Assembly: GCA_019787685.1 (NCBI GenBank)
Contig: JAHNUO010000007.1
Coordinates: forward strand, 1,364,001 to 1,428,000
Direction: 5' to 3'
Source: Chiua virens
Taxonomy: Eukaryota > Basidiomycota > Agaricomycetes > Boletales > Boletaceae
Length of the DNA stretch: 64,000 nt
Below, in pieces: positions 2,031 through 14,530 of this stretch; position 1 is the first letter of the stretch, and each line of letters begins with the position of its first letter. The notes beneath the pieces were generated by a model that made no database searches, was not told the DNA's origin, and worked only from the letters and a program-made list of their open reading frames with translations. The translations under genes and the position numbers were made by a program.

Positions 2031-3992
2031 TGTGTTATACTGTAACATTTGCATCCAATGAATTTTTTGCTCTGTTAACTATTTTCCAATCTGTAGTAGC
2101 ATCAGTTGAAATTAAAGGGTCATTAGAAGACCAATGAAGTATCTTATGTAATCCAGAAGGCATATAATTTGAACCTTTCCATTATCTAAAGTTAGATATA
2201 CAATATGTAAGTGTGTTTTATCTGTGACCTATTATAGTATGAGGCAACTCATTTAAGAAATAAAGTCTAGTGATTTCATCAAGCAGCTCAAGTTCTCTAA
2301 ACTCATTACATTGCCATCCTGAAATACTACCTGTAATTTTATTAGTATCAAAGCCTTGTAGAATAATTGTACCATCTGCAGTGGTATCACATGACAGAGC
2401 AGTATATATTGACTGATGAGAATGGCATCATTGTAAATCAACAACATTGAAGTTTCTAGTCTTTCCTTGAGATACATAATTAGTCATTGCAAAGTTAGGT
2501 AAAACGTGGACTTGTCTACATTTAATATGAATTGTGACATCACTAGGTAAAACACAAGTGATTTCTTTAATGGTTGAAGGTATTGGAACAATATTTAAAG
2601 GTAAACCTTAAATTAAGACATCATGAGGAGAATACATCAATTTTACAAACCAGGTATCCAAAGTCAGTTGTATGTGAACCTGTACAAGTAGTCCAACCAG
2701 CCACAGTTCCTTCTTGTCCATTTGTTATACAAAGTTCAGTAGCATGATTATGCTTTATAATGACTGGTAGACACAATTGCAGACAACCTGCAAAGTGATC
2801 AGAGGTGTGTGGAGAACTCTTCCATGAAATTTCTTGTTCAGGTAATGACAAGGGAATGACATTTTTAGAATCATGCCCTTTTCTTTTGAAATTTAACTTA
2901 TTCTTATAAACCTCATTCACTCTCAAGTCTTCAGAGTAGAAGTTAGTCAATGTCTGATTTGAATCTTCAGCAAAATGTACACAACCTAACTCATTTATAT
3001 GGTCCTTTTGTGTATTCCAAGCTGTTATGATAGATACATTATGAAACTCTTAGATGTTAAAGATAATTCAGAATGTAAGGGTGAGATCACATGACTTTGT
3101 AAAAATTGAATATCTTTTGAGGTACAACTCTTATATCTCATGTTTGTTAGAGCAGCTCTAAACTTGTGATCATCAGAAGAAACAGAAGTCTGTCTCATGT
3201 TTTTTTTTCAATATGATCACTGTAGTCACTTGATTCCATAAGGCTTTTCCAATGGCTGATTCCTGATCATAATGTGTAAGACTAGAATAAGGAGAAGATC
3301 CAATTATACCACTATACAATGCATGTGATTCATTTCCAAGTACAGGTGAAAGTTGAGCAAAGTCTCCTGTGAAAATCATATTAATGCCTTCAAATGGCAC
3401 ATCACATTTGTTAAAGGCCTTTGCAAGTTGTGATGAAATCTTATATAAATCACTGGCATGACAACATAGAAACCTCATCTAAAAAGATATATTTAATCCC
3501 AAGTAATCTTTCTTTCATTAGATTAATCTTAGATGAAGTGCCAAAAGATTTGTCATTAATACCAAGAATAGAATGATAGGTATAACCTCCAAGTTGAGCT
3601 GCAGCAGAACCTGTAGGTGCTAAAATTAAAAAATCTGAACTCCTGTCAACAAGTAGTAGAAATTCTTTCAAAGCTTTTATTACTTGTGACTTACCTGTTC
3701 CACCCATATCACCTAGATACATTTTGAGTTGCTCAGTTGAGTGAGATAACATGTATTTTACTACAATCATGAAAGCACATTGTTGCTCTTCATTTAAAGC
3801 AAAGTGTTGAATTATGAATATAGAGATTTCACAAATATCTTCAGATATATTCTGTAGAAATTGTATGAAGTAATCTTTATCAATCAATTTTACACTATTT
3901 TGAGATTTTGAAAAGATTTCAGTTAACTTATTGAATGAAGATGAAGATGATAAAGAAGGTTTACATACTTGAAGTTTATGTTGTAAAAACAT
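2030..3992 (-). pseudogene. Helitron 1 PIF1-type helicase domain
   Basis: The superfamily 1B helicase part of the Helitron protein. In minus-strand order it shows LNEEQQCAF (Q motif region), LGDMGGTGKSQV (Walker A, about 3700), APTGSAAAQLGG (motif Ia), LDEVSML (Walker B, about 3495), GDFAQLSPV (about 3350), DHFAGCLQLC and NGQEGTVAGW, then YTALSCDTTADGT and KITGGISGWQC near 2330-2400. The ATPase would unwind DNA during rolling-circle transposition. Frameshifts occur near 3480 and 3170 and several stops lie between 2250 and 2620, so it is a relic. It continues upstream into the Rep part and downstream into the protease-like region. Confidence 0.88.
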
Positions 3993-4019
3993 TTTCTTTG
4001 TCTCTTGTACTTTTGCTTT

Positions 4020-7000
4020 CTATTCAGAAGCAGTTGATGTGATTGAGGGAACAATAGGTTGTAAGCATGAAGGAGTTTGAGTATCTTTATGGAGTGGATT
4101 TAACCATCCTGATGTGTTCATGTCATCTTGTATGATTTCCTTTTCATATTCCCATTTAGCTGTCTTCTGTCCTATGATATCATCTGTGAATAGAACATGA
4201 TATGTATTTGTAACATCACTATATTCAAGATAGGGCTCATCTTCAGTCTCATTGTGCATCAATTTTAAATCAGATGGAAAGGAAGAATAGATTAGCATTT
4301 TTTTTGCATTGTAAGGAAAAATCATCTCTTGCATCCATACATTCAAACTTCACCTTTAGATTCTGCATAATCTGTGTGTGTGAAGAATTAAAGGCAAATT
4401 CATTGAATGAAATTATCCAGTCACAATGTATTGATCATAAATCATAACCTGTATGCTGTAGAAGTTGGATACTCCTTATGGTTGCAGGATACCTTTTTTC
4501 CACTCTCCATCATATCCTATCACCTCCCATCCCATCTGATATCGACTTCGTGCCAATCCAATTCTATTTCTAGCGTTTACAGATCATCTGAACCCAATCT
4601 GAGTCCAATCTGAGTCAACATGATCCAAACTGGTTTCATTGTACGTATTCCACTTCATCTAATTTAACTTGTCCTATTTGATTTGGCCTTATTAAGGTTG
4701 TTCCTATCATAATATCTTCCTTTCCTTTTGTGATCTACAAGGTTTGACACCCCTTTTCTTAAATACTCACCCTACATTGATCCTGTATACTTACCTAGGG
4801 TTGGATTGCCTTTAACAGTCCTGGGTTGTGCCCAGGACTATAAAACCATGTTTTCTAACATTTAATATTATCTTTCTGTGTTCAGGAGATCACCTACCTA
4901 CTCTCCCAGTGTATGAGTGGGCCGTATATCCTTCCTTTTGCCTCGTCCTATTGTTCCTTCAGTGTCTCACCTCCTTAAATCAATTTCCTCATTGCCTTGA
5001 CTCCACCCAGGATACTTTTCATGAACTGCTTTTCATTCCAGATTGTTCAGCAACCTCTAGGACTTATAGACAAACCCAAATCCTTCAATCCCTTTGAGTA
5101 TAACCCCCCTTGGGATGAACCTATCACCCCACCTTTCTTCTCATTGCCTATTATTGGTTTTCTTCAACTGCCATGGTTTAAAAAATAATAACATCACTGA
5201 ACAATAAAAGCCTGATCACCTTTGTCATCATGAGGTAATGAAGGTCTGATGAAGTTAGGAATCCATTTAAACTGAGCAGACAACAGGTGAACACCATGTG
5301 TTAAATGTAAAGGATAATCATTTGTATAGAGCTAAACACCTTCAGGAGGCAAAACTTGATCTCCACTTGCAAGTCTTCTTTTCACCTTTTGTGATAAAGG
5401 AACACATGTATAAGAACAAATCCAATCATATAAACAAATTGAAGTACAAACCAAGGGTCTATATATATAGTCAAAGACAGGATTGGTTCCAATTATTTTA
5501 TTGTGGTCTCTATTTAGATATCAAGGTTCATTATGATCTAGTTCATAAGTATCATCTGAATGCCAAACCTGCCTAGCTTGAAGAACAAATGACATCCAAT
5601 AAAAGTTAATAAATTTATGATCTGTATAATGATCAGGATAGTTGCAATAGATATAATGAAGCTATTGGAGCTCCTAACCTCAAGTTTGGATGTTAAAGCA
5701 TTCACAGCCTGAGTCATGATTTTTCTTGCTTTTTCCTGACAATCTAAAGTTCCATCAATAAACATAAGATTATGATTAAATACACTTTGTATTGTGTCAA
5801 ATATTACATAAGTTTTGAGCAGAGATTTGCTTATATAATCTGAGATATATGCAACCACAGCTGTTATTGCAGTACCAGATAATAAACTTGTAACATCTGT
5901 ATTACAATGAAAAGATATGAGACAATATTAGTAAATGTGTTCATCATGGGCTCCCCCTTTTTAAGGTTAAGATAACCACTCTCAGTATCTACAAAAGTTT
6001 GATTGAAAGTAGGACAAGGAAAACATGCTTTGCAAACTCCAATTTTACTTGAGAGACAGCTTGTATGTAATTGGTTGACCAGTAGAAGAAGCTGATATAG
6101 AAGGAGAAGCAGAACAAGTATGAACATTTGTTTGAAACAGAATATCATTTGTTGTTTTAATATAATTAACTTCCCATTCACTATATGCTAAACATTGATT
6201 GCACTTACAGTTCTCTATAGATTTAGCTCCACATGTATGAGGAGAAGGTATGGGTAAGGTCTCTGTAGGAGTGAGTTTGATACACCAACTGGATTTCATC
6301 TTCTTTTAATATATCCTTCATGGTAGATATAGTATAGTCATTTAATTCACCCTGATGACATGATTTTAGGTAATGTACAAGAGATTTTTGAAAATTTGAA
6401 GAATCAAGTATTCATTTATGTAACTCTGTAGGAGCCACACAACCTTTGATCCATATAAGCATATGTAAATGAAGTGTTAATCTACCCTGTTGTTCAACAG
6501 TGCCATAAAAAGCATCAGTTGTACCATAAATACCATAAGTATATGAGCAATCTAATGAACCTTGAAACAAGGACTCATTAGAACCAATAGGACATCCTAG
6601 AACATGCTTAATGAACATAGAAACCATCAAGTGGAAGAAGCAAGCACCAGCTACAGGATTGCTTGAAACTAATTTTCTTCATGTAGATTGATGTAAAATA
6701 GTTGGAGTAAATTTTTCCTAACTGTCAGCATAGTAAAGACAAATAGGATGTCATTCATCTGCAGGTGACAGAGTAATGTACCAACTAGGAGCACCTTTAA
6801 ATGCTATTAGAGACCATATTTAATTATGCATATGTTGTTTGGAAGTGAATGAACTGCTTACATCTTTGCCTATTAACTCTAAGTCATTCATTAACTTGAA
6901 GCATCTCTTCTCCTCATCAGATGTAGGTATTATACATTCACCCAATTGAAGTATATGTGTGATATCAGAAAGCACAGCTGGATCCATGGAGAAAAGTTGT

Positions 7001-7785
7001 TGAGTTATAGTTTCAAATTGTGCACATTAGTCATGAGAAAACCACTTGTAGTTGCTTGTTTAAATTGTTTGTCATAGTACATTAGCATGTGTTGTTTACA
7101 TAGAACATCTGAGATCTTTCCTTTGTGTATATCTTGACCTATTCCTCCTAAACCATATGGGAACAACCATGGAAACATCATAGGATATAATCGAGGATCA
7201 TTCCATAAAGTTTCAGGGTTATCATCTCTGCCTACTGCTAGTATCTTACCACCTTGATGAAGATGTTGTAATGCCAGAGCTTTTAAAGCATGTAAGGACA
7301 ACAATATATAATCTTGACCTGTTACACCATGTATTGTCATTGGACAAGTTCCCATTAAAGTTCCATTATTATCTCCAGTTTTATGTAGAGCCTGAGTCTC
7401 ATAAGGACGTTCTCCAGAAGACATTTGGTATTCCATAACAAGTGGAGGTCCACTGAAAATAAAAGCAATAACATCATCCAGATCAGTAGGAGGTGGAGGT
7501 AAAGCTTTGTAAATCTTTTGTGAAGGATGTTTGAAAGAAATAGCATTTGCAATCATCTTTCTCGAGCCAGAGCTTCAAACTTTGATAACATATCTGTTGA
7601 TTCATACCCTAGATATGAGCAGTTTTTCAATATAGGTTAGATTCTGTAGCTCATTAGGAATATTTCCATACCATATATTGTTAGCCATAGCTAATTTAGG
7701 ATGATGATCTTTTTTTAGAGAAGATGAACAGTTGTCACAGATGAAATCATAGTCTCTTGCTAAGACAGGTCCAGATATTTGAACA
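4020..7785 (-). pseudogene. Helitron 1 Rep (HUH endonuclease) domain and linker
   Basis: Helitron_like_N-type Rep region. In minus-strand order: FICDNCSSSLKK and PKLAMANNIWYGNIP (7602-7785), RLYPMMFPWLFPYG and MLMYYDKQF (7005-7556), GTVEQQGRLTLHLHMLIWIKG with the HxH metal-binding pair (about 6430-6500), VAYISDYISKSLLKT with the two-tyrosine Y motif (about 5820-5855), then KWIPNFIRPSLPHDDKGD and FKPW near 5170-5260. After the 4417-5149 insertion it resumes with SFNEF, ECMDARDDF and the linker to the helicase. The Y-motif tyrosines would make the covalent DNA nick. Multiple stops and frame changes are present. Confidence 0.88.
4417..5149. mobile_element. 733-bp non-coding insertion inside Helitron 1, flanked by ATTAT
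   Basis: The Rep reading (FKPW on the right, SFNEF-MDARDDF on the left) stops and resumes on either side of this AT-rich block, and ATTAT is present at both edges (4412-4416 and 5150-5154). The block contains a TATAAAA-like word near 4839 and a CCTGGG/CCCAGG palindrome near 4820-4835. It could be a decayed solo LTR, but the ends are not TG...CA, so the class is open. No convincing coding sequence inside. Confidence 0.5.
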
Positions 7786-7809
7786 CTATGAGGGTCCAAA
7801 TGCACATTT

Positions 7810-7900
7810 AATCAGCGCACAACTTTGTCAAGTGGGAGCGCAACTTTTTTGAGTAGGAGTGCAACTTTTCTGGAGGGCATCAACTTTTTCTGTGTATTTC
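7810..7900 (+). repeat. Left subterminal motif array of the integrase-type transposon
   Basis: Four imperfect copies of a roughly 14-bp word, GCGCACAACTTTG, GAGCGCAACTTTT, GAGTGCAACTTTTC and CATCAACTTTTTC, spaced about 20-25 bp. They face inward and mirror the array at the right end. Subterminal motif arrays of this kind usually bind the element's own transposase; that role is inferred. Confidence 0.75.
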
Positions 7901-8289
7901 CGGGTCACTCCAAAAAAAATGAAACCATTAGACCATTTAGGCCATGTTTGATAAGATTCATGTCCAAGTCAGTGACGGCCAGTGTAATGTACCACATATG
8001 TTCTATGTAAATGGGACATCTACGATGTGAAATTCATTAAGGATGGGGAGCATGCTAAATGAGTGAATGTGCAAACAACGATGATTAAGAGGTAACTTGA
8101 ACAGGAGGGATGGAGTTCAAACATGATAATGAGTACACAAGCCTATGCCCAGGGATTTCGAGTGGCAGGTTTGTGAGCTGGACGTAGGGCTGAGACTCAC
8201 TGATGATCCAGAAGAGTGGCAGATGAGCTGCTTGTCGCCTGAGTAGACTGAGGGAACTCTGTATCGATGGACTTGTCAGTCACTAGTTC

Positions 8290-10110
8290 ATGGATAGGTG
8301 ACATGAGAACTGAGAAACATAAGTCCTGAGTGGGACAATTGAAGGAAAGTCAGCAAACATAGCTTACCATGATCATGGTAGGTATCAGATTTGATTTGCT
8401 TGCCCCATATGCCACTGCTAGAGCCAGAGCCACTGGTGGTGTTAGTTTCAAATGCTGTGGACGCATAGCGTTTCAATCCAACTTGGGCCTGTGTAGATAC
8501 TAGTATATGATATGTCCGAGTCATGACTTCAATAGATACTAGTAGGAAATAGAAACTGATGAACCTACAGGTATCGTAGCCTGAGTTCCAAACATCACTG
8601 GCATGCATAAGTCTGTTTTGGCAAGGTCAGTGAAAATACAGGGTCATGGTGGTATTCGACTGAGCCACAGCAGGCCCAGGACTGTCACCACCAGTTTCCA
8701 AGTCCATGTTGGTGCCAGCATCAGCCACACTATGACCAGTGACAACCTGAATATCAGAGTCATCAGACCCAAAGTCAAACAATTCAGGGATAGAGGGCCT
8801 GGGTGCCATGATGGCTTTTCCTTTCCCCTTCAAGTTGCTCTTCTGAGTCGACCACCATGACTGTGTCTTTTGAGGCATCACTGGCATGGTTTCATCATCA
8901 CTGGGATCATTAAAGTACTCGGATATATCATCACTTTGAGTGCCAACCTCCAAATCTAGGTGTGCTGTGGTTCTTAGTCAGGACTCTTCATATGGCAGCA
9001 TCCCAGTCAGGATATACATCATCTGGGATAGGGATTCATGGAGCTTGGGAGTGATGATAATATGATACCATGACAGCCAAAATAGTGAACCATGATATAC
9101 CGATGGCAATAGAATACAATGCAGATTTCCAATCAGGTGCACCCTTGACTTCATCAAGTTCTTTCCTAGTAATTGTTGGCCACATAAGGACAAAGTAGTT
9201 CTGGTGATCTGAATTGAGTAAGACCCAATGAAATCAAGGATCCCATGAGAAGCGTCAAGCCTATTTGAATGGCTTTGGAAACAAACATTGGAGCCACAGG
9301 TCAATATCAACCATTGACCATGAGACATTGAACTCTAGATCATTTCCACCACATTCACCCACCACCAAACTAACCTGACGATAGGTTTCTAGTTCAGACT
9401 TCCCAGGTTTCTTCATCATATGCTGGGGCCCAGTCTGAATAACTCAGGGTTAATATACTAGCAATAAAAATGGTAGCATGATAGATACTTACGAACTCCT
9501 CAAGTCGAGAGGGATCATGATCATCACACCAATTTTGATCAACTTCTCTTGTGGCAGATGAGACATGCTCCGACAGCTAACATTTCTAGTCTAGATGTTT
9601 ACAGTTAGTATATATATGACAATGTACCTTCAAAAGATTTGAAATATATACCTTGGATGACGAGGAAGAAGCCCTATTCTTACGAAATCCAGAGAAAGCT
9701 TCATTCTTGGCAGCAATAGTAGGTATCACTTTGGCTCATGGATGAAGTTGCATAGCACCAGAGTTGGCCTGCTGGGTGGCATGCTGATTGATGATGGCCT
9801 GAACCAGTATTGTTGGCCATCACAGGAGGTGCTGAGGTGGAGGACTGCAGAGCCTGAGCACTGTTGTGACCATCTGAGTCAGCAGAACCAGACAAGCGAG
9901 GAGGGGGATCAGTGGAGAAATCACTGTGACGGTGGTGGTGCAACTCCTTCTGAAAACAGGTAGTGCAGCAATCTCCGTTCCATCCAGCAGCCACAATGAA
10001 CTGGGTGCATGGTCCCACTGGACTGGAGGACTCTGAAGATGAGGCATTGAGTGACATCACTAGTGGATGAGACTTGGAGGGAATAGATGATGCCACCACA
10101 AAGGTTACAT
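8290..10110 (-). pseudogene. Unrecognised passenger gene of the integrase-type transposon
   Basis: Several minus-strand pieces point to one multi-exon gene: a Ser/Pro-rich N-terminus at 9701-10099 (start MVASSIPSKSHP) with a CCTTCFQKE stretch; a middle piece around 9000-9260 that in one frame reads WPTITRKELDEVKG and ISWFTILAVMVSYYHHSQ; and an acidic piece at 8627-8953 (SDDISEYFNDPSDDE, NLKGKGKAIMAPR). I do not know the family. It lies between the left terminus and the integrase gene, on the same strand as the integrase. Stops and frame changes indicate decay. Confidence 0.4.
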
Positions 10111-10123
10111 TTCTGCAGGAGAT

Positions 10124-11880
10124 TTATATACTATCATGGATGTGCATCATGATGTCCAAACCCTGTGCCCACAACACACTATGCATCCACCACACCTCAA
10201 AAGGGAGCTCAACTGTATACTCCTGTTTACTGTGGCCAACGGAAATTAGTTCAATCTCAGGGTATGAGCCACCCATCCATTCATCCTGGGCAACTCCATA
10301 GCCCAATGGGATAATCCCTCATTCTTGAGCTTCTTGAACTGCCAATCTGAATACTTCAAAGGCTTGAATGGTATGAAAAGGTGATGTCGTCAATGGCACA
10401 TCAACAGCAGCATGCCTGATATGCGTGTTCTGCTCGGCCACAATCTCAGCTTCCAGATTAACACCATCATCCGAGTGGCCAGTAATGGCAGGCTCCACAT
10501 AAACACCATGCTGGACGGTGGAGAGAAAATGCATATCCTATGATGTGTCCAAGTTAATTACTGTCAAAAGAGCTTTAACTTGAAACTAATTGATGTGACA
10601 TACTAACAGTGATCGATTATGTCCTCACTTTGAGATCAGGTGGTGGTTCCACTCATCCTGGAACTGCTGACAGTTGTCATTCAGCTGTCTGAGAAAGAGG
10701 TAATGTAATAGCCATAAGTGGTGTGAATTGCCAACATCAAGGTGATGGATGTCTCTGAGACAGATGAAAAAAGCTTTCCAATGACGCACAAAATTAATAC
10801 CAATGTCTACCCAAAGTCTTTCAATGTGGGAATTTCGTGTTGATTGTCCCCACAAGAAGGAGGATCAGTTGGGACCACAGTGTTGGATCATCCAAATAGC
10901 AATATCCAAATTCTCACCACCATGGTCTCCATGGACACGTGAAGGGGTGCCAAAAGCTTTAGTAGTGCCAAGAAAAAGGTCAAGCACTGTTTGTGCACGG
11001 TTATCTATGTTAGCTTGTAGGCCAACTAGTAGTGACGTCAACAAAAATACACACAGAACAAAGTACATGCCATTTGACAAAATCCATCAATTATGCCATG
11101 AATGACAATACCCCACCAGATCAATTTGTGGTGGCCATCAATATGCCACACATAATTTGATCAGGGAGCTTCATACACGTGCCACCTGATTACAGCTTGA
11201 TAGTGGACTGAGCTGGCCAAGCGGGTTGATACATTGCATAGATGATTGAATATGAGCCCGTTGTACGTGTATTCCATGAGATTTCAAAAATGCAATGACA
11301 AATCATAGACCAGCATTTGGGCAGTCCTGCTTGTAATGGCAGATGACCACATCAAGTTCTTCATCTGTTATGTTAGAATATTGCTTGGATAAGCCACTCA
11401 TTTGTAAATGATGGCGCAATGTGTTTCGATGTACACCAAGAGCTTGTGCAAGGGCTTGCAGAGGGATGTGGTGGGATAATGACATTGCATCGGCAAGCCA
11501 TTCAGTGTCAAATTTCAGGCATGGACAACCTCGATTAGGACCAGGTAGCTCAGATACAACAGGTGTAATGTGAATGATGGAATTCCTATGGAGAAATTAC
11601 TAGTTTGAAGGCATGGCAAACTGAAAAAATTCTTACTGTCTGGTCTTGGATGTAGCAGCCACGAGATTCTCAAGTACATGCAATAGTTTGCCAAACATAT
11701 TTGCACACGTTGTTGTCCAATTAAGGTTACCAACCTCAGGGTAGAGCACCTCAAGGAGTGGCACCATTTGCTGGGTAATCTCATCAGTGTGAATTTGAAT
11801 ATGAAGTGGATCATTATCTTCCTGTTGTAATAGCCCCACTGCATGCTGATATGCATCCTGAAGAATTTCATGTGCACAGC
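10124..11880 (-). pseudogene. rve-type integrase-core transposase (Agaricomycete integrase-like family)
   Basis: Minus-strand pieces in order: a helix-turn-helix near 11303-11485 (IPLQALAQALGVHRNTLRHHL); a catalytic core with IDGHHKLIWWGIVIHG (first Asp, about 11120), a probable 42-bp intron, then NIDNRAQTVLDLFLG, GDHGGENLDIAIWMI (second Asp) and SHIERLWVDIG (Glu), about 34 residues apart; then FLSTVQHGVYVEP, and a C-terminal domain with GYGVAQDEWMGGSYPEIE and VLWAQGLDIMMHI. The fold is the retroviral/IS3-type DDE core, so it is the best candidate for the enzyme that moves this element. An Arg codon of the core is TGA (CGA to TGA), and frames shift several times. Confidence 0.8.
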
Positions 11881-12239
11881 AAATGTTAGAGCTCTAGTAA
11901 TCCCATGCCAGAAGTGGAGGGAGGGCTTGGCTTACTAGATGCCACTGGTGATCCAGTCCAGGCATAGCTGGATTAATGGAGTTACTTGATGAGCCCTAGA
12001 ACTGTTGAGCTTGTGAGTTAGCATTGTTGAATAAACAGAGACTTACAATCCTGGCAGTTGAAGCAATGACAAGAACAGAGGTCTCTGTTTGGTACCAAAC
12101 TTGGGCGGTCAGATTGTGGCTGTGCCTAGCACTCACCAACTTGGACTCTCCATCAGTGCTTCAAGGTGTTCAAAGAGGTACCAATAAGTATCCCTCAACA
12201 ACTCCTTGTTGTTCCCTGGTAGCCACTCAAGCCTGAGGT

Positions 12240-13341
12240 GATCACACTGTTTCACACATCACTGAGTCGCCCTTGCCTAACCACTGGTCCACCAGCAGGT
12301 GTTGTTGTTATCACCTTTTCCATGTCACAGTCTATTCCTCAAGAGCGTCACCTGGAGTTTTATTTCAAGGATGGCACTGTTGTATTTGTGGTATGAACCT
12401 TCACAGATTGACATCCCAGGGTGCTGATTGTTGGTTTAAACACGTAGGTTCCAGGGTCAACCTCTGGAATGCTTTACCAGCTGTATCCTGGGTTTCTTGC
12501 AACACGTTCTTCAGTACTTGATGCTGTACTCTCGTTACCTCAGCAAGTAGGTCAAATAAACACCATCACTGCTGTGGGCATCGAGGGCACTTGTGATGAG
12601 AACCCTATTGTTCTTCATGGCATCATTCAGCACGAATTTGACTACCCTTTGAGCTTTTTGTTTGGCCGGTAAGTGTCACTTTTGACCACACCCTGGGGGC
12701 TTGTAACCATGCTAACATTACAAGTAGCTATGTCGACGAGGGCCACTGTCAAGAGTTCTTGATCTCTGTGCTCAAGCTATCAGCTTTCTTTGAGATCACC
12801 CATGGTTATCAGTTTGCTGTTGCTGAACTCACATGCCTCTCACCACTCAAGACCTCACTCAAATTGCAGCTTGGCTGCTTGTACTGTGTGGACCACTGGG
12901 TTGAACCAGCCTTCTGAGATATGATGGCTCAACTGCTGTCATCTATCTCTCATGCCAAGGCTCACTGCATGGGACTTGATTACTTTATGTCCTCTGCCAC
13001 ACCAAAGCAGTGATGGAAGAGAATTACCAGGCCATTGCATACACTGAGCCCGATCTCATGCGGCGTGGAAGGACAAGTGGTGGAATGGTGTTGCAAAGCT
13101 GCTGCTGCACCCTGACACCCCATGTCATCTAGATGAACTCCTGTTATTGTTGGACAAGATGGACATTCCAGGTCTTTGCAATGTGTGCAAGGAGGCCACC
13201 CTTACTCGTATGAGGGACTTGGATGTGCTTAAAATTGACATGGTATTGCAAGACATTGTGGTCTTAGAGGTAATGGAGATTCAGACGGATAAACCTATCC
13301 AGAGACACATAGGTTCCAGACTCGAAGCCTCGAAGGGCTAA
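12240..13341 (+). pseudogene. BTB/POZ-like basidiomycete protein, passenger gene, decayed
   Basis: Plus-strand pieces in different frames match the order of a basidiomycete BTB-like family: LEFYFKDGTVVFVV (about 12355), RSSVLDAVLSLPQQVGQ and DENPIVLHGIIQHEFDYPL (12469-12672), then QLGCLYCVDHWVEPAF and DMMAQLLSSISHAKAH (about 12880-12970), WWNGVAKLLLHPDTP and LLLLDKMDIPGLCNVCKEA (13080-13200), TLTRMRDLDVLK and EIQTDKP. The strand is opposite to the integrase and the gene runs toward the right terminus. Frame changes and stops (for example the TGA after VEPAF) show that it is dead. Its role in transposition, if any, is unknown. Confidence 0.6.
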
Positions 13342-13394
13342 CTTGATTTAAGTACATCATATCTACTAGTATCAAACTTGGATTATCTGCTTGT

Positions 13395-13570
13395 TTGACA
13401 AAAGTTGTGTGCTTGTGGTTGAGAAAAGTTGTGCTCCCGTCTCGAAAAATTGTGCTCTTGCTGCTTAGAAAAATTGTGCTCCTGGGCCCTATCCAGAAAA
13501 GTTGTGCTCCGGGCCCTGTCCAGAAAGTTGCACTCCCACTACTTGAAAAGTTGTGCTCCTATTAAATGTG
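13395..13570 (-). repeat. Right subterminal motif array of the integrase-type transposon
   Basis: Read on the minus strand there are about seven copies of a GAGCACAACTTTTC-like word, separated by spacers, two of which include GGACAGGGCCC or GGATAGGGCCC. The array is the inverted counterpart of the shorter array at 7810-7900 and ends at the terminal inverted repeat. Confidence 0.8.
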
Positions 13571-13587
13571 CACTTGGAGGCTCATAG

Positions 13588-14530
13588 AACACAGGGTTTG
13601 GTGTGATGTTTACACTCACTTTTAGTGACAACTTGATTACCAGCCAACAAACAATTAAGATGTTGTTCTGATAAACAAGTTATCTTTGTATTTAGATGCA
13701 AATATGGAGTAAGCTGAGCACATACAGCACAACCATATTCCATTAAGAAGTCTGTAGATGTATCTTTACAAAAACGATGGATGATTTTATCTCTCAACTT
13801 TCTTGAAGGAGATGAGGGAAGAAAATGACAAGTATCAAAGGATGAGTTAAGATTAGGTTTTTCTTTATTAGAACTTGGTAATTTTTGTTTTTTAATTTTA
13901 TTATGAACAACTTTGAATATGGAAACTCTATGATTGTTGTCATTAAGAGAAGATATGTTCATAGTATCAATTCTATCAATTGTAGTCAGTAGTTCAGATG
14001 ATACAGTACATTTAGGAACAAATAAGCCATATTCCTCAATAATTTGACACATTTGTTCATTATATAATCATTGTGCAAGAAATCTTAATGGAGAACAAGC
14101 AAACAGCAAATCATCAGCTTTAATCAATTTGATTGAGTCTACATGAACAGTATGATGCATATATTCAAAAGATACATTATCTTCATCTACAATTGAGGCA
14201 TGTCTGTGACTTAGAGGTGAATATAAGTATGGTTTAAGTTCTTCATACATAAAGACAGCAATACTTCGTCTGTCATGACCACCACCTATATGACAAGTGT
14301 CAAAACAATCATTATGAAGTGCTTCCTTTTGTTCTGCCTGTAGAGTATTAAGACTAGGCTTTTGCATGTAAATTTTATATTGAATATAGTTGACACAACA
14401 TGTGAGATGATGATCAAAATGAGCTATGTGTTTTGTAACCATATAATTAGTACACAAAAATCATGATGATGAATAATCAATTGTAAAAGGGAAAGACAGA
14501 TAGTTCTTATTGTAATTAACACTGAAGGTT
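13588..14530 (-). pseudogene. Helitron 1 Rep protein, N-terminal part
   Basis: Two long minus-strand pieces (14457-14068 and 14052-13588) carry the N-terminal region of the Helitron protein: MVTKHIAHFDHHLTCCVNYIQ, DCFDTCHIGGGHDRRSI, FMYEELKPYLYSP, DDLLFACSPLRFLAQ, then a basic stretch KIKKQKLPSSNKEK and DKIIHRFCKDTSTDFLMEYG, CAVCAQLTPY and LLAGNQVVTKSECKHH. The order and wording match other basidiomycete Helitron N-termini I recognise. A stop (FLAQ-stop) lies near 14065. The reading continues at 7785 once the 7786-13587 transposon is removed. The true start is uncertain. Confidence 0.8.

Follow-up and report, generated by a model that had tools for sequence, protein, structure and literature searches.

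A likely IS3EU/GingerRoot-type transposon with a three-gene set in the bolete Chiua virens

The described transposons closest to the element reported here are IS3EU and GingerRoot. In the passages that describe them, complete IS3EU families always end in TA..TA, usually make 6-bp target-site duplications and have no HHCC before the core, and GingerRoot elements end in TA..TA, occasionally in TG..CA (Kojima 2023, PMC10045372). Those passages mention an HTH-like N-terminus in describing IS481EU, not IS3EU. The IS3EU elements of rust fungi are described as having TAYGG..CCRTA tips, terminal inverted repeats (TIRs) of more than 30 bp, and a TET/JBP gene between the transposase gene and an oppositely oriented alpha-kinase gene (Kojima 2025, PMC12730594). 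A table of repeats from one Boletales species also includes IS3EU (PMC12411881), and part of another report records it from a Ganoderma species (PMC8955403). A preliminary description of the locus analyzed here was aware of no definition of the mobile unit, termini and cargo of agaricomycete integrase-like proteins. IS3EU had already been published from fungi, with passengers in rusts, and from a Boletales species. Ginger1 and Ginger2, in the parts of two papers that treat them, have TGTNR ends, an H2C2 zinc finger and 4-bp duplications, or 4-5 bp for Ginger2/TDD (PMC2836005, PMC10045372). Vertebrate proteins that combine BTB with the zinc finger of an integrase are described in the relevant passage of PMC12062965.

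We analyzed a window of 64,000 nt of Chiua virens DNA (contig C7, positions 1364001-1428000) and searched the genome (48.3 Mb in 136 contigs). We think it likely that the window contains a decayed IS3EU/GingerRoot-type transposon of Boletales with a fixed set of three genes (Table 1). The analysis supplies the edges of the element, the length of its duplication, its arrays and its genes for mushroom proteins that stand in databases only as integrase-core proteins.

Table 1. Features of the element and its flanks, in window coordinates.
Feature	Position	Strand	Description	Basis
Unit	7787-13586		5800 bp; TATGAG...CTCATA	tips by copy comparison
Left target-site duplication	7781-7786		GAACAC	single copy in empty site
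Right target-site duplication	13587-13592		GAACAC	copy comparison and empty site
Left terminal inverted repeat	7787-7826	+	tip TATGAG	arms 7786-7826 / 13547-13587; tip by copy comparison
Right terminal inverted repeat	13547-13586	-	tip CTCATA	inverted-repeat arms and copy comparison
Left subterminal array	7815-7870	+	motif GAGCACAACTTTTC; 3 copies, first 28 bp from tip	<=3 mismatches
Weaker fourth left array copy	near 7877			by eye
Right subterminal array	13399-13558	-	6 copies, first 28 bp from tip; one weaker copy	<=3 mismatches; weaker copy by eye
Third gene, decayed	8146-10057	-	N-terminal C..C..C..HH, central conserved block, C-terminal RNPWA	tblastn with P0001, P0148 and the C15 protein
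Integrase-like transposase gene, decayed	10139-11965	-	HTH and rva_4 core; introns; several in-frame stops
BTB-like passenger gene, decayed	12331-13323	+	stops and frame breaks; head to head with transposase gene

The whole unit in the window was inserted in the past and made a 6-bp duplication. Contig C21 has an empty paralogous site (241190-241445) that contains GAACAC once and no insert. This site is 88% identical to the joined window flanks over 240 bp, and a reading frame runs open across it. Because C21 carries the joined flanks uninterrupted, with GAACAC once, the element can be delimited as in Table 1, and the empty site indicates that all of it, rather than only a part of the block, moved into this place. 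The mobile unit first proposed was therefore right, and each of its edges was off by one base: because the duplication is 6 bp, bases 7786 and 13587 belong to it and not to the element. A frame is open across the C21 site, and the flanking frame may belong to a Helitron, as first described; besides that description, the signs are a helicase-like frame recognized by eye and a weak match to DUF6570 in one of three flanking frames scanned (6.4e-05, barely passing its cut-off). The helicase-like and DUF6570-like frames lie beside the insertion at window positions 3450-3992 and 7005-7556, on the minus strand.

Other copies in the genome have duplications of the same length. We compared seven end pairs, and four had a duplication, each exactly 6 bp and neither longer nor shorter: GAACAC in the window, AAGATT on contig C15, ATAATG on C16 and CGACTG at one of two short elements on C14 (C14-b). 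There was no duplication at the other short element (C14-a, 2068 bp), at the C18 pair (tips ~12.5 kb apart) or at a long pair on C14 (C14-long, ~12 kb apart). As a control, flanks were cross-paired among the seven end pairs, and none of the 42 pairings matched over 6 bp. The 4-bp duplication AACA of the preliminary description thus gives way to one of 6 bp in every copy that has a duplication.

The ends fall into two families. The inverted arms of the window element (41 nt including the duplicated base) are 85% complementary. Tips of the form TATGAG..CTCATA are found in the window element, C14-a and C14-b, and tips of the form TATGG..CCATA in the C15 and C16 copies and also at the C18 and C14-long ends. 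Allowing up to three mismatches, the window tip pattern occurs at 11 places genome-wide and a reversed control pattern at none. The tip pattern of the related family occurs at 14 places (control, 0), two of which are among the places found with the window pattern.

Inside the tips are arrays of short motifs, inverted between the two ends. About four copies on the left and seven on the right had been described, and we recovered these numbers when one weaker copy on each side is included. The window element contains nine matches to the GAGCACAACTTTTC-like motif, whereas 100 dinucleotide shuffles gave 0.64 on average and never more than 3. The C15 copy has a different motif, GGCGCAATCATTTG, with 10 matches, nine of them at the ends (shuffle mean 0.82, maximum 3). 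The array of the C16 copy is eroded and unconvincing taken alone (five matches, four at the ends; mean 0.63, maximum 4). The motif sequence differs between the window family and the C15-type family, and in both families the first motif is 27-28 bp from each tip (5/5 copies scanned). We infer that the arrays are candidate binding sites for the HTH of the transposase and that they diverged along with it.

Tips and arrays of the window type also occur in the two 2-kb elements on C14. These elements are in opposite orientation, ~120 kb apart, and 94.8% identical over most of their length, and only C14-b has a duplication. Neither matched any of the three genes, and we infer that they are non-autonomous derivatives.

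The C15, C16 and C18 copies have the three genes of the window element in an unchanged order. Order and orientation are the same in two families of this genome that are 66-69% identical where they can be aligned. The core of the transposase is Pfam rva_4 (PF24764), which is rve-like and agrees with the retroviral-type core first described; the match to an HTH is weak. The acidic triad in the C18 copy is D-56-D-34-E. Among 114 listed relatives, a simple pattern gave a spacing of 34 between the last two residues in 51 and another spacing in four; 59 were unmatched. The C15 copy has a stop where C18 reads open. Pfam rva_4 gave 11 matches genome-wide, at six places: on C15, C18, C16, C7 (the window), C14 and C11.

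The BTB-like gene, which had also been noticed before, is matched in tblastn by P0125 of Boletus reticuloceps over window positions 12256-13323, with gaps. In C15, C18 and C16 its last exon has an open frame of 217 codons. Assignment to Pfam BTB is weak (7/18 members of the family match, the best at 4.6e-6), and a fold search with a model of the protein gave no match at E 0.001. Further BTB pieces are on C12 and C4, and an interrupted copy is near a tip on C20. The C20 copy adjoins a right-hand tip and is split by ~0.7 kb of unrelated sequence (about 3290-4020 of the extracted locus); this locus had no transposase match.

The third gene corresponds to the further gene of no assigned family in the preliminary description, and it recurs in relatives. 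A tblastn search with P0001 of Boletus reticuloceps covers the window from 11965 to 8146, with gaps, as far as the C-terminal RNPWA. An N-terminal C..C..C..HH motif (by pattern) and KRIK-type basic motifs are each present in 8/18 third-gene proteins, several of which are partial models. Three relatives had no Pfam match, and there was no sequence match in the PDB. The predicted structure had a mean pLDDT of 36 and was unusable.

Pieces of the gene set are also found together in other Boletales (Boletus, Lanmaoa and Paxillus). Among the matches listed, at least nine of the 152 proteins retrieved combine two of the modules in one gene model. Eight join the transposase to the third gene (P0001, P0017, P0020, P0070, P0073, P0110, P0144 and P0149), and P0103, from Ceratobasidium (Cantharellales), joins rva_4 to a BTB-like part. 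These models are probably annotation artefacts that join adjacent genes, and for that reason they are informative about the neighbourhood. In addition, among the matches listed, 4 of 26 BTB matches were on the same contig of the same species as a transposase or third-gene match. One such pair is in Chiua virens itself (P0115/P0142). In Boletus reticuloceps, P0125 and P0001 have consecutive locus tags (3897/3898). In Paxillus rubicundulus, the BTB protein P0130 and the fused transposase/third-gene model P0144 are on one 13-kb contig. The pair in Hydnomerulius pinastri (P0128/P0147) is on one 692-kb contig, which indicates the same contig and not a neighbourhood. BTB neighbours of the integrase recur in the C15, C16 and C18 copies and beside pieces of the set in other Boletales.

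The dN/dS ratios indicate purifying selection in most of the usable comparisons. We made 10 exon-wise comparisons, three of which were saturated, their values of 0.000 being meaningless. In six of the seven others dN/dS was well below 1. For the BTB-like gene it was 0.14 between C15 and C20 (211 codons), 0.17 between C15 and the window, and 0.20 between C15 and C16. For the transposase it was 0.14 between C18 and the window (one exon, 166 codons, dS near saturation) and 0.09 for a second exon against the window; ratios against the window are rough, with dS > 2. The third gene gave 0.17 over only 37 codons. The seventh value, 0.38, is for the transposase between C15 and C16, and CpG decay has affected both C15-C16 ratios.

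We considered whether the BTB-like and third genes might be inert fragments captured from a host, and not working parts of the element. Mushrooms have large families of BTB genes, passengers can be passive, and within the 9.9 kb examined at each of the rva_4 places on C14 and C11 there is neither a BTB gene nor a third gene. But the conserved order and orientation in two diverged families, the low dN/dS ratios, and the recurrence beside transposase and third-gene parts in other Boletales all argue against inert cargo, which we regard as unlikely. Because the set recurs in a second family, pieces of it lie together in other Boletales, and most usable comparisons indicate purifying selection, we take the BTB-like gene and the third gene to be regular parts of the element. 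Relatives with ends were found in part: the same genome has copies with termini, duplications and the same cargo, and two more distant rva_4 fragments, on C14 and C11, were not tied to ends. The C14 fragment (4649-5186 of the extracted locus) has 41% identity and begins just outside a C15-type tip.

Three features match IS3EU/GingerRoot: TA..TA ends, a 6-bp duplication in 4/7 end pairs, and no match to an H2C2 zinc finger. The H2C2 finger was sought in 12 transposase relatives (with E as high as 1 allowed for P0001 and P0002, and 0.05 for the ten others) and in the window pieces, and a host gypsy integrase, the positive control, matched Integrase_H2C2 at 6.7e-19. The HTH was not counted toward IS3EU because an HTH-like N-terminus is described for IS481EU instead. 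Six relatives match NCBIfam IS3 and IS481 models, but these matches do not discriminate and were set aside: gypsy and copia integrases of the host score higher than the relatives against IS481 and about the same against IS3.

The placement is based on the published descriptions of ends, duplication and zinc finger. Like the rust elements, as they are described in PMC12730594, the Chiua elements have 6-bp duplications, TIRs longer than 30 bp and a passenger in opposite orientation; the tips are TAYGG in C15, C16 and C18, but TATGA in the window family. In contrast to the TET/JBP and alpha-kinase passengers of the rust elements, the passengers here are the oppositely oriented BTB-like gene and the third gene, and the word BTB does not occur in the main text of that paper. 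Compared to IS3EU and GingerRoot generally (Kojima 2023, PMC10045372), the TA..TA ends, the usual 6-bp duplication and the lack of HHCC are shared, and the three-gene set is different; subterminal arrays are absent from the passages describing those groups. In the literature searched, which took in few subscription journals and not Repbase, so that absence is weak evidence, we found no BTB passenger or third gene in IS3EU.

We regard it as quite improbable that the element belongs to a separate superfamily with no more than TA..TA tips and 6-bp duplications in common with IS3EU. Polintons, too, make 6-bp duplications. The likeness to IS3EU comes from descriptions, and in a quick tree the mushroom proteins are apart from those of fish and Hydractinia; still, among the matches listed, rva_4 proteins of fish and Hydractinia are 40% identical over ~55% of the query, and fungal IS3EU, as far as the published passages describe it, agrees in its tips, in the lengths of TIR and duplication, in having no zinc finger and in an oppositely oriented passenger. 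The tree included 51 of at least 114 listed relatives and five genome copies (a quick method, with SH-aLRT only); 24 of 53 inner branches were open, and no branch separated the outgroup from the rest. Transposases of the window and C15 types were within a set of 10 rows with SH-aLRT 100 (four copies, five Boletales proteins and one other), and P0103 and the C14 fragment were unplaced. Thus the element looks like a variant of known IS3EU rather than a new superfamily. The suggestion of a new lineage survives for the variant, with its BTB-like and third genes, and not beyond it, since the TA..TA and 6-bp signature was already published for IS3EU/GingerRoot and IS3EU was known in fungi.

The Ginger1/Ginger2-like transposon with CTATGAG tips and a 4-bp duplication that was suggested earlier is hardly credible: the core is rve-like, as in the DDE integrase-type core of Ginger (which has TIRs of similar length in the parts of PMC2836005 that describe it), and a duplication of 6 bp must include one of its inner 4 bp, but a 4-bp reading leaves an outermost element base that varies among copies and in C16 fails to pair with its counterpart at the other end. 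In all four copies, by contrast, the 6-mer is exact; there was no TGTNR end, and no zinc finger in the 12 relatives and the window pieces.

Returning to an IS3EU-type element, transposition might proceed as follows, by analogy with the DDE integrase family. The transposase would bind the subterminal array through its HTH and assemble on TIR plus array. Cleavage at the TA tips would be followed by strand transfer into the target through DDE chemistry, with a stagger of 6 bp. The BTB-like gene lies head to head with the transposase gene, and the third gene is downstream of the transposase gene on the same strand, its product perhaps serving as a nuclear accessory factor. The BTB protein may serve the element, though this is doubtful; its likeliest role would be that of an adaptor or oligomeriser acting upon proteins of the host, such as a Cul3-type ligase adaptor against silencing. 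Equally tentative is the broader notion that, in a lineage of mushroom IS3EU elements, the transposase has long had a BTB protein of the element as its selected partner, in Boletales and also, through an ancient or a separate association, in Ceratobasidium. This BTB protein would probably be a chromatin factor, or an adaptor of a ubiquitin ligase, and would help the element to oppose silencing by the host or to control transposition. A BTB-like gene adds to the known fungal IS3EU passengers (TET/JBP and alpha-kinase), and if its protein does act on factors of the host, the transposon would have a tool against silencing that can be put to the test.

We also looked narrowly for rva_4 outside eukaryotic genomes. 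In viral contigs (with a fish query) none of five stretches was confirmed, and in plasmids there was none. In prokaryote genomes, two peptide patterns gave 33 stretches, four of which were confirmed, all in sponge-symbiont MAGs. These four had no clear element ends, and the genes are probably sponge host DNA in the bins.

The copies differ in their decay. The window copy has in-frame stops, frame breaks in its genes and loss of CpG (observed/expected 0.24), compared to 0.57 for C16 and 0.90 for C15 and C18. In C16, 137 of 170 C-to-T or G-to-A changes are at CpG. The strong CpG decay fits methylation-driven mutation of silenced transposons. C15 and C18 parted recently, since they differ at only 26 of 4977 aligned sites. 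Over the whole 64,000-nt window, CpG observed/expected is 0.17.
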